A DNA stretch of 64,000 nt from Cyanodermella asteris (taxonomy: Eukaryota > Ascomycota > Lecanoromycetes > Ostropales > Stictidaceae). Position 1 is the first letter of the stretch, and each line of letters begins with the position of its first letter. The stretch is from assembly GCA_900618795.1 (NCBI GenBank), contig UYJD01000005.1:528811-592810 (forward strand), given 5' to 3'. Below the pieces are notes generated by a model, which saw only the letters and a list, made by a program, of their open reading frames with translations, did not search any database and was not told the origin of the DNA. Shown in pieces: positions 17,001 through 33,301 of this stretch. The translations under genes were made by a program, and so were the position numbers.

Positions 17001-17491
17001 CACGCTAAGATTCGCGAAACAGGGTGGACGATGTGCTGGGGAGTGCTACGTATAAGGCGAGGTTGGCGCTGAGGTTACGTGAGGTTTCACCGCCCTACGT
17101 TTCGGCCCTTGGCCAACCTCACCTCGTCGACTCGACGCGATTTCCCCAAATCGGTGATATCTGCGGTAAGGAACGCGATTTTCAGCTTGGAGCCACGCCC
17201 GGACATTACGGCTTATCAAGGTCTCACGTCGAATGCTATTTTTACCTGGGGAAGTCGATTCTCTTGGAAGTACAGTTTGTATCTTATTGGAAGCAGGTCG
17301 CAAGGCCGATGGCATGGTCGAACGGTGCGGCGAGAAAGCGGACAAGCAAGAATAGGATTGATCATCACAGTTCTCACACAGGGCAGACGCGGTTCGATTG
17401 TGATTATAGTTGATGCTGAATGCATGATTCTCACGGTGTCCTTTCTCTTCAGTATGCTTATGTCATGTCGACAGCGGGTGCTCTCCAAGGT
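14059..17491. other. long gene-poor stretch left of LTR element
   Basis: No gene can be supported in these 3.4 kb. The longest frame (14892-15443, minus) has arginine-rich, low-hydrophobicity composition typical of chance reading. A short (AAGC)n run lies at about 15912-15931. Base composition is not strikingly AT-rich, so there is no gross RIP signature. Confidence 0.4.
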
Positions 17492-17756
17492 TGTAACGCG
17501 GGCACGGGTTGGTTGACTGTGTAGGCGACCAATGAAGGTCGGCGTCAAGTNNNNNNNNNNNNNNNNNNNNNNNNNNNNNNNNNNNNNNNNNNNNNNNNNN
17601 NNNNNNNNNNNNNNNNNNNNNNNNNNNNNNNNNNNNNNNNNNNNNNNNNNNNNNNNNNNNNNNNNNNNNNNNNNNNNNNNNNNNNNNNNNNNNNNNNNNN
17701 NNNNNGATCAGCGTCCCTGACGTCTGATCGGTCTTTCCTTTGTCCGTGACAAAGGT
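17487..17756. mobile_element. short LTR element with 5-bp target duplication (solo-LTR size)
   Basis: The element runs from TGTAACGCGG at 17492 to GTCCGTGACA ending at 17751. It thus has the 5'-TG...CA-3' ends of LTR retrotransposons. It is flanked by direct repeats AAGGT at 17487-17491 and 17752-17756, a 5-bp target-site duplication. The middle is an assembly gap (17551-17705), so the true length (260 bp as drawn) is uncertain. At that size it would be a solo LTR. The first 59 bases match the element start at 31686 with one mismatch, so the copies are young or recently related. No internal coding region is visible. The superfamily (Copia or Gypsy) cannot be assigned. Confidence 0.8.
17551..17705. 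other. assembly gap (155 N)
   Basis: Run of N inside the LTR element. The gap probably reflects repeat collapse in short-read assembly. Its length may be only an estimate. Confidence 0.95.
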
Positions 17757-28597: not shown

Positions 28598-31500
28598 ATG
28601 ATGAAGTCGGAGTGTTTCGCTCGAAGTGGAAGCCAACAAAAGTCCCAGGGACAGCTACAACTGCGCGATCTCGATAGCCTTTGTACACCGTTGAACTCAG
28701 AACACGATACGGGCCAACGGAGTGTCCCCGGTGAACTGCCGCATGAATTCAAGCGACGGACTGGATGGAAACCAGTAACGCTGCACCCGGTCTTTCTCAT
28801 ATGCGTGGCAGTATTCACCGCGTCATTGATCGCCATCCTGTCCTATCTGGCTGACCTTGACTATCACGAAGGCGGGCTGACGTTCGCTCCGGATGACAAT
28901 GGCTTTCCTGCGCTCACGACTTTTGCATATCTCTACCTGCCGACGGTGCTTTCTGTTTCTCTCAGCATGATTTGGGCATGGATAGACCTGGACATCAAAC
29001 GCCTTGAACCCTTTTTCCAGTTGTCGAACACGAATGGAGCCACTCTCGAGAACTCTCTTCTGCTGCAGTATCCGTTCGATTTCATTGCTTGGGCACCAGT
29101 GAAAGCCTTCAAACGCCGGTCAGTTTAGTCATATTCCCCTATTCGATATGGTATAGTAATATGACGCAGACACTGGGGAGTTTTCGTGGGTGGCATGGCT
29201 TCCGTAACAATTTTCTGGGCGATCACTCCCTTGCAGGGCGCAATATTCGACACTCGCGCAGTCATTAAAACCCAAGCAATCACTCTCCCGGCGGTGTATT
29301 CCGTCGATCCCATCAAAAAAATGTTCAAGTCCGACCAATACATGAACATTGGCTTCTTGGAGAACGTGTGGAATGTGATTTGGCACGGATCTGAGCTACC
29401 CCAATACACAACCACCGACGGCATCCTCCTCCCTGTCAAGATCAATCTGGACCAAGTCTACGGCAAAGACGCCTTTCTTGTTGTCGATACTACTCTATTG
29501 ACAACAACTTTGAAGTGTAGCCAAGTGGAATTTGCCAGACTGGACCCAAACGGTGACTTCAAGATCGATCTTGGTAACAACTGTGTACCTATGGCCAATA
29601 TCAATCCAGAAGGCCCCAACCTGCTTTATTTCGGCTCCGGAGATGATGAAAGGGGATATTACTCCCTGCCTGCGGTCGGTTGCCCCCCGGGGTCGATTGG
29701 GAGCGGCTTCCTCGCTGTAGTGTCTGCACCAATTTCGTCTAAATTCAACTCCTCTCTCGATTTCCAAGCTGTCGCTGCCTTTTGTACACCACAGTACTGG
29801 AGCCAGGAGGTTGAAGCTCAATTGAGTCTACCGACAATGGCTGTAAGCCACGGCTTAAGACCGCTCGGTCCTTCGGTGCCACTGAATGCGGACGTACTCA
29901 ATACTACAATGTTTGAGCAGATGATCAGCACGGGCCTGACGCCTTCACTTCACTGGAGCGACTTACAGACGTTAAATGCGCCCGAAGCAAATCCCATAGG
30001 GCAGGGCTCGCAACTAGATCGCTTCAATTTCTCCTGGTCATACCGTGAACCACCGATGGCGGGATACATTCTTGGCACCTCGAATATTGATCCTGATCAA
30101 TTTGATTTGCTCTTGAATGAAACTTACCTGATGAATGCTCTTGAGAAGACCCACCAAATCATGTTCGCGATGGCTCTAAGTTCTATCTTTCAGAAAGCAC
30201 AAGTTCCGGAGCCATCGATGCGGCCAGTCACGGGCACACTAACTCAAACATTATCGGCCCTTGTGATTGTCCCTTCTTTTGCTTACGCCATGCAATCTTT
30301 GTTGGCGATGATCACACTATGTGCTCTACTTCTTGCCGTCTTTTATGGGCAACGATCCTCCCAACTGATGTGCGACCCAGACTGTCTGCGAAACGTTGGC
30401 AAGCTGGAGATCGATACCGATGGCGACATTGATCTGGAGGCCATGGCAGGGCGTACCTCTCGAATGTATTTCAGACTGCTCCGAACTAGCGCAGCAAAGA
30501 GTATCCAAGTTTCGCATCAGGATGATCGCGACGACGGGAAGCCTGGGCCGCAGGCGGAACATACCAAATCGCCCAGTGACGAGATCATGCGACCATTTTA
30601 TATCCGACCGGGTGTCGGATGTGCATTCATTTGTTCCTTGGTCGGTGTACTTGTGGCACTAGTGGCCTTGGATCGATCCTCGATCGCAGAACAAGGCTTG
30701 GTTCTGCCTTGGTCAAACCCGACCACTCAACAGATAGTCTTGAACTATCTTCCAACGCTTGTGGCTACATTGCTCGAGCCTTTCTGGACTCTGCTGAATC
30801 GTATGCTCTGTCTACTCCAGCCATTTGAGGAGCTTCGAACTCTGAAAGCTCGAGCCGCCGCCTCGATCGATGCCCGCTACTCCTCACTGCCACCTCAGTT
30901 GACTATTGTCAGGGCATTGAAGCAACGGCATTTCCTACTGGCACTTGTATGTTCTGTGGCAATGTCTGCGAATATCCTCGCAATCAGTATGAATGCGCTT
31001 TTCGACAAGGATCCCGTCTTGTTCCCTGCTCGAACTGCGTATTTTCATACCAAAGAAGCCCAGATCTACTCAGATACTTCATCGCTTGGTGTTGTAAACT
31101 ATGGGGCTGACGAGCGTCTCGTCCACTTTCAGGACCATTTCTTTCTGGCCAACATGAATCTTACAGATGGGGCTGGTCTACCGGCCTGGACTGCCAAAGA
31201 TCACTTCTTGATGCCCATGGCGTCGGAACCCGCAAACACCTTGGACGATGGCACGCAGTATCTCGCCCAGACCCAAGGATTGGCTGTTTCGACTGAGTGC
31301 GAGGATCTTGGTTTGCCCTCCACCGATGGCCCCTTCCAATTCGAGCCCACCGTGAGTAGTAACTATGAACCGGTTCTTGCCTTTATTAGCGCCAACATTT
31401 CTGTTCGACTGAATGATACCAACGGCAGAAGTCGCATCTGCTCGTTGGAGAATTTTGGCATGTTAGTTCCCATCAATGGGACCGCGGCATACGAGGCGAC

Positions 31501-31680: not shown

Positions 31681-32366
31681 CTTGATGTAACGCGGGCACG
31701 GGTTGGTTGACTATGTAGGCGACCAATGAAGGTCGGCGTCAAGTCTGAAGGTGTTGCTTGNNNNNNNNNNNNNNNNNNNNNNNNNNNNNNNNNNNNNNNN
31801 NNNNNNNNNNNNNNNNNNNNNNNNNNNNNNNNNNNNNNNNNNNNNNNNNNNNNNNNNNNNNNNNNNNNNNNNNNNNNNNNNNNNNNNNNNNNNNNNNNNN
31901 NNNNNNNNNNNNNNNNNNNNNNNNNNNNNNNNNNNNNNNNNNNNNNNNNNNNNNNNNNNNNNNNNNNNNNNNNNNNNNNNNNNNNNNNNNNNNNNNNNNN
32001 NNNNNNNNNNNNNNNNNNNNNNNNNNNNNNNNNNNNNNNNNNNNNNNNNNNNNNNNNNNNNNNNNNNNNNNNNNNNNNNNNNNNNNNNNNNNNNNNNNNN
32101 NNNNNNNNNNNNNNNNNNNNNNNNNNNNNNNNNNNNNNNNNNNNNNNNNNNNNNNNNNNNNNNNNNNNNNNNNNNNNNNNNNNNNNNNNNNNNNNNNNNN
32201 NNNNNNNNNNNNNNNNNNNNNNNNNNNNNNNNNNNNNNNNNNNNNNNNNNNNNNNNNNNNNNNNNNNNNNNNNNNNNNNNNNNNNNNNNNNNNNNNNNNN
32301 NNNNNNNNNNNNNNNNNNNNNNNNNNNNNNNNNNNNNNNNNNNNNNNNNNNNNNNNNNNNNNNNGA
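31681..32366. mobile_element. LTR element inserted in DUF3433 gene, mostly in an assembly gap
   Basis: The element starts TGTAACGCGG at 31686, with the same first 59 bases as the element at 17492 (one mismatch), and adds 16 more readable bases before the gap. The 5 bases before it are CTTGA. The sequence after the gap starts GAATTATT, so the second copy of the duplication would be 32362-32366 with its first three bases hidden in N. As drawn the element spans about 676 bp, more than the other copy, but the gap length may be nominal. It could be a solo LTR or a full element. No coding region is visible and integrity cannot be judged. Confidence 0.75.
31761..32364. other. assembly gap (604 N)
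   Basis: Run of N inside the LTR insertion. It begins 75 bases into the element and ends within the predicted target-site duplication. Confidence 0.95.
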
Positions 32367-33224
32367 ATTATTCGACACGATTCCTCAATTCTGGCCAGGT
32401 TATCGAATCGTTTCAAAGTGGGCCTGCGGCTGATCCTTCACTCTTTTTCAATTTCAACAAGACCAACTTGAACAACATGCTTGAACGAATGACCAACCTC
32501 AATACACCATGGACGGCAATGACGCTCGGAGACAACTTTGGCGGTCCGGCGGTTGGCCATCGGTCTACAACAACTCAGACTTGGATGCCTTACCTGATTA
32601 GCCGGGCAGCAAATTCGACGCGGACTTTAGACCCCAGCCTTCCCGCTCCGAGCGCTGCCGAGCTGATACCCTTGATTCAAGAAGTCAATGCGTTGCTTGG
32701 GGCATTGCTAATGTTCTTAGAGCAGGAGCGTCTGTTCAGGGAGATAGCGAGCGAAGATCAGGCTTCGCACCCGCCGGTCTGGGCCACTTACGACACCACC
32801 GAGCTGAGGCTATTTTTGAATCCCACGATGTTCCCGCTGACGATTGCACTATTGACATTCAACATATTCGTTGCAGTAATATTTTACGTTCGAGCACCTC
32901 AGAAGCTGCTACCAGAGATGCCAACTACGATCCTTTCCCAGATGAGAATGTTCGGGGGCAGCAGTGTACCGGCAGAACCGGTGGGGGAAACCAAAAATGC
33001 GCGATACGGATATGGTCGTTTTCTCGGGCTTGATGGCAAGTTGCGTGTCGGAATTGAGCAAGTGCCATACGTTCAAGCGCTGGCATGATCAAAGGCATGG
33101 CTTGAACAAGATCAAACGAGCAATGTTAGTCGGTATTTTTGCATATCCGTTTTGCTGTTATGATGACATACAATGATTTCTATTTCGCTGGGCCGACCAT
33201 CCAGGGCACGAAACCCTTGCAAAT

Positions 33225-33301
33225 AAGGCGAGCTTGCATAAGTCATGATGCACCCACTAAGCCTATTTCGGGATGCATTATGACTTATGCAAGCTCGCCT
33301 T
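33225..33301. repeat. 28-bp inverted repeat forming a strong hairpin
   Basis: Arms 33225-33252 (aaggcgagcttgcataagtc...) and 33274-33301 are reverse complements at 27 of 28 positions, with a 21-base loop. It lies 136 bp downstream of the DUF3433 stop codon. Such a structure could be a miniature inverted-repeat element, a hairpin RNA source or a 3'-end structure. I see no convincing flanking target duplication. No other copy is present in the window. Confidence 0.9.

Follow-up and report, generated by a model that had tools for sequence, protein, structure and literature searches.

What interrupts the DUF3433 gene on contig C7 of the Cyanodermella asteris assembly, and what is left of that gene, are the questions raised by a locus at which a long open reading frame runs into a dispersed repeat and then into an assembly gap. 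The window, meaning the whole stretch of DNA analysed, is 64,000 nt of this contig (positions 528811-592810) in a genome assembled as 28.54 Mb in 25 contigs. The answer favoured here, at a probability of about 85%, is that an LTR retrotransposon inserted into the last exon of the gene and duplicated the sequence CTTGA, that its remnant is most likely a solo LTR, and that the gene is truncated.

The gene lies on the forward strand, as do the visible parts of the insertion. Exon 1 (28598-29118) is an open frame with an ATG at 28598 and a second at 28601, and is followed by a putative intron of 51 nt (29119-29169), annotated from sequence alone, whose phase-preserving GT...AG bounds (GTCAGT...GCAG) were chosen by eye such that an RHW motif common to a paralogue is retained. 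Exon 2 extends from 29170 to the insertion point at 31685, on the basis of its open frame, its similarity to PF11915 and its alignment with the paralogue; its remainder, through the stop codon, occupies 32367-33088, where an open frame in the matching phase aligns with the paralogue's C-terminal part. The membership of DUF3433 claimed in the original prediction holds, as Pfam profile searches matched PF11915 within 28601-29128 in exon 1 (E = 4.7e-19) and in two stretches of exon 2 (E = 1.2e-22), both left exons exceeding the curated score of 27 bits (68.9 and 80.5 bits), while the right-hand piece gave no Pfam match at E 1. Equally sound is the statement that the host frame is unbroken up to the element: it is open to 31685, the last base of the left target-site duplication copy, CTTGA (31681-31685), and the sequence after this is TGTAACGCGGGCACGG... 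The further claims that phase is kept across the insertion, and that counting CTTGA once yields 1252 residues, are borne out by a coding length of 3759 nt including the stop (1012 plus 240 codons) and by the frame analysis. To the left of the junction the host frame is open for 1497 nt, which is all of the flank that was examined, and to the right its continuation in the same phase is open for 717 nt; this is the single frame long on both sides, each of the remaining five being open for 63 nt or less on at least one side. Translation of the gene pieces reveals no internal stops, and the observation that an element splits an otherwise readable gene is confirmed.

The element starts at 31686, where the sequence reads TGTAACGCGG, and 75 bp of its 5' end are visible (TGTAACGCGGG..., 31686-31760) before a gap of 604 N (31761-32364), which would cover what remains of the element and the initial CTT of the right CTTGA. 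The right contig begins GAATTATTCG at 32365, and its first two bases, GA (32365-32366), would represent the last two of the right duplication, both from the sequence itself and from the pattern at sister copies. The window copy therefore displays two of the five bases of its second CTTGA, and its 3' end is absent from the assembly.

Comparison with a paralogue on contig C16 (L092) supports an ancestral exon without interruption at this point, although on the right the correspondence does not extend to single residues. When four loci were searched, this paralogue aligned with residues 2-811 of exon 2 (29% identity, E = 9e-94), and its C-terminal part with residues 18-239 of the right-hand piece (39% over 230, E = 8e-47). 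Just left of the split, TSQTHLMCQTYL in the paralogue corresponds to TSQTFLACKTGL in the window, with a local score of 37 that was reached by 6 of 2000 shuffles. Before alignment resumes at residue 18 of the right-hand piece, the paralogue has 21 residues in place of 17, and the first 25 residues of this piece, compared with the paralogue in isolation, show no alignment, their score being matched by 1916 of 2000 shuffles. An in-frame stop in the paralogue, 40 codons before a TSQT motif, may mark an intron.

Truncation of the gene follows from the first bases of the element. The last base of CTTGA and the element's TGTAA are read in the host frame as ATG TAA (31685-31690), so the translation as it stands ends ...CKTGLM* and the last 240 residues are cut off. 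The predicted product would consist of 1012 native residues and one methionine, lacking the final 240 residues and the two hydrophobic stretches that these contain (residues 100-118 and 155-173 of the right-hand piece), and the truncated gene is probably non-functional. Splicing of the LTR as an in-frame intron, for which T/GTAACG is a possible donor, was considered and set aside because the first AG past the gap (GGCCAG), located by eye, would shift the frame.

The inserted sequence belongs to a family dispersed throughout the genome. Its first 15 bases occur 158 times, as against none for the reversed control, and at least three other places, among 40 scored of 129 candidates, match the visible stretch of 75 bases in full (75/75), which together indicate that the match is not due to chance; the family's 3' end, WTGTCCGTGACA, has 138 exact occurrences genome-wide, and its reversed control four. 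The ends are of the TG...CA type, the window copy starting with TGTAAC and sister copies ending in GTGACA, or GTGATA in L023. Copies that could be read from end to end free of N measure 322 bp (L064), 371 bp (L020), 384 bp (L023) and 386 bp (L008, the minus copy at L017, and L068); further lengths are 396 bp including 25 N (L018) and 374 bp for L047, which has N before its start. Midway along all seven aligned copies is a TATATA motif, which is read as a promoter motif. When L020 and L018 are compared with L008, L017, L023 and L068, and with L064, approximately the first 175 bases are common and the second half differs; the LTRs seem to fall into at least three subfamilies that share their 5' half. 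The window itself hosts a second copy at 17492-17751, with 155 N within it and AAGGT on both sides (17487-17756 with flanks), and at L025 (1258-1566) one family copy appears, by eye, to be nested in an older-looking copy of the same family.

LTR-type ends and a 5 bp duplication had been predicted for the window copy, where the element's start and two right-hand bases can be seen; for the remainder, this proposal stands on the sister copies. Of the 20 copies in which both ends were read, 16 are flanked by an exact 5 bp duplication: 11 of the 13 gapped copies whose 3' end was recognised (the misses being L015 and L041), four of six gap-free copies (L020, L023, L064 and L068, the misses being L008 and the minus copy at L017), and the second copy in the window, with AAGGT/AAGGT. 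Outside these 20 are copies lacking a recognised 3' end, copies whose gap leaves the fetched stretch, L047 with its preceding N, and the gap-free L011, L031, L084 and L085, in which the 3' end was not seen. With a looser script, 18 of 65 distinct copies showed GTGA[CT]A followed by an exact duplication; L039, L045 and L070, which lie outside the 20, are among these 18. A separate test concerned the right contig edge in the 19 gapped copies with no visible 3' end and a right contig starting outside the family. In six of these the contig opens with at least the last two bases of the expected duplication, against a shuffled mean of 1.26 and a frequency of 5 in 5000 shuffles for an equal count; with the copy in the DUF3433 gene removed, the figures are 5/18 and 19 in 5000. 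A wider set of 25 copies, from which the 19 were derived by dropping four that start inside the family and two with a missed 3' end, gave 7/25 (shuffled mean 1.6, P = 0.0005). Given this excess at sister copies, it is a genuine pattern for the right contig edge to fall within the duplication.

That the pieces of the gene are truly adjacent, and that scaffolding wrongly placed an element between them, is extremely improbable: the gap is unsequenced and the family repetitive, as such an error would require, yet the junction between host DNA and LTR start falls inside one N-free stretch, and the right contig opens within the duplication predicted for it, as also happens in sister copies. How much of an element the gap conceals is a separate matter. 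Solo LTRs arise by recombination between an element's two LTRs; in the mechanism proposed here, a member of the LTR retrotransposon family would have entered the last exon, duplicating CTTGA, and such recombination in the full element would have left a solo LTR of around 370-390 bp at the site. A full-length or partly deleted retrotransposon with internal genes, hidden by the gap, is unlikely, if still worth some weight. At 604 N the gap is longer than the roughly 310 bases still to be accounted for if a solo LTR lies there, and 16 of 63 sampled copies adjoin gaps that leave the fetched stretch (15 gaps, one being common to two nested copies); larger, full elements may be hidden in such gaps. 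Gap length was nevertheless rejected as a measure of element size, since at L045 56 visible bases are followed by an equal 604 N and the copy then resumes at approximately LTR position 57, such that a run of this length carries little information and can hide almost nothing. Full LTR elements are also usually far larger than 604 bases. Among 94 exact starts on C2-C13, 23 had an exact 3' end no more than 15 kb away with which they could be paired; 22 of the paired spans are 107-988 bases including N, one is 2425, and none is 4-8 kb. Judging from the sister copies, the site in the DUF3433 gene most likely carries a solo LTR and not a full element.

Direct-orientation pairs of starts separated by 0.5-8 kb are missing altogether from the same 94 starts on C2-C13; of the sampled copies, 54 of 63 adjoin gaps. 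The lack of such pairs would fit a family of short non-autonomous insertions, with ends of the integrase type, that has never had a two-LTR form in this genome. The reverse transcriptase and integrase expected of LTR elements were likewise not found in the assembly, and an assembled internal region, where a primer-binding site and polypurine tract would lie, was not found either. Profile searches returned no match to the integrase rve (PF00665) and one to RVT_1 (PF00078), which is telomerase (Telomerase_RBD E = 1.4e-42); RVT_2 (PF07727) and RT_RNaseH (PF17917) matched nothing in the assembly, and control genomes were silent for these two as well. Such an origin is nonetheless improbable, as the TG...CA ends, the 5 bp duplication and the midway TATATA of seven aligned copies fit an LTR, and the N next to most copies, together with there being only 25 contigs, imply that the assembly probably collapsed its repeats and left out small contigs. 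The missing domains are therefore probably to be read as repeat collapse in the assembly and not as proof of absence, and direct-orientation pairs may have been lost through recombination. A bolder proposal, that at least 158 short LTR-type insertions persist with no reverse transcriptase except telomerase, the driver having been lost or working from beyond the assembled genome, and young copies such as the one in the DUF3433 gene still breaking genes, has to be considered a long shot. Close pairs of starts on C2-C13 are mostly head-out, as in six of the seven within 8 kb (C3, C6, C9, two on C11, and C13). These pairs suggested a DNA transposon with terminal inverted repeats, a candidate that was rejected: by eye, the C3 and C13 pairs, the two read of the six, show no duplication between their flanks, and on C13 the plus copy bears a duplication of its own. 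The DDE_1 profile had one match, elsewhere in the assembly and just above its cut-off (26.3 bits against 22).

The solo LTR favoured here appears to be a relatively recent arrival. The identity of the 75 visible bases to other copies, the lack of internal stops in the gene pieces and the lack of RIP-like change in those 75 bases, as judged by eye, suggest that, measured by sequence decay, the insertion is young; the first two of these lend modest support to the recent insertion that had originally been proposed. Elsewhere in the family, L023 looks RIP-mutated: C>T or G>A accounts for 35 of its 52 changes relative to L068 and the reverse for 11, with 26 of the 35 in a CpA/TpG context. RIP-like changes, together with a DUF3433 gene that has a short intron, suggest a filamentous ascomycete.

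The DUF3433 exon looks like a rare place for copies of this family. Insertions ending an open frame of at least 900 nt number two (that in the DUF3433 gene and L003) out of the 62 whose left flank was usable, compared with 25% of 4000 random window positions, and the median open run is 160.5 nt at insertions and 366 nt at the random positions; the contrast is approximate, the control being one window and the copies only part of the 158. At L003, the frame is open for 1410 nt on the left and, on the right, the one in phase with it for 135 nt, and this is possibly another interrupted gene.

Just past the gene, at 33225-33301, is a different repeat, a near-perfect inverted repeat with 31 nt arms of 94% identity and 15 nt between them. 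Exact matches to a 26-base pattern from the arm lie at C15:431488, C15:431638 and C20:657309, and four more places match it with three mismatches, so this sequence may be a miniature transposon.

The DUF3433 insertion opens no long-standing question; it illustrates cleanly how an LTR insertion, seemingly a young one, truncates a gene through its own first five bases, and its presence or absence could be used as a marker to tell isolates apart. For annotation it urges caution, as a truncated DUF3433 gene or a pair of gene models at this position would be an effect of the insertion and the gap.

Fungal DUF3433 (PF11915) membrane proteins, a family that appears in a gene-family table of PMC7896725, are resembled by the window gene in the PF11915 matches of its left exons; unlike them, it is interrupted. 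Gene-disrupting insertions have been described in Zymoseptoria tritici, where insertions into exons are reported to be rarer than expected and mostly rare in the population (PMC8445621); this under-representation in exons agrees with the scarcity of insertions in long open frames described here for one genome. In common with ascomycete LTR families, this one includes one copy with RIP-like changes (L023); it differs in that its coding part was not found in the assembly. In Mycosphaerella fijiensis, solo LTRs and elements with unlike flanks have been reported (PMC3562529). The copies analysed here are similar to ascomycete solo LTRs of the Ty3/gypsy or Ty1/copia type in their TG...CA ends, their 5 bp duplication, their length of several hundred bp and their dispersal, and the insertion into the DUF3433 gene looks like an ordinary kind of mutation by a common mobile element of this fungus.
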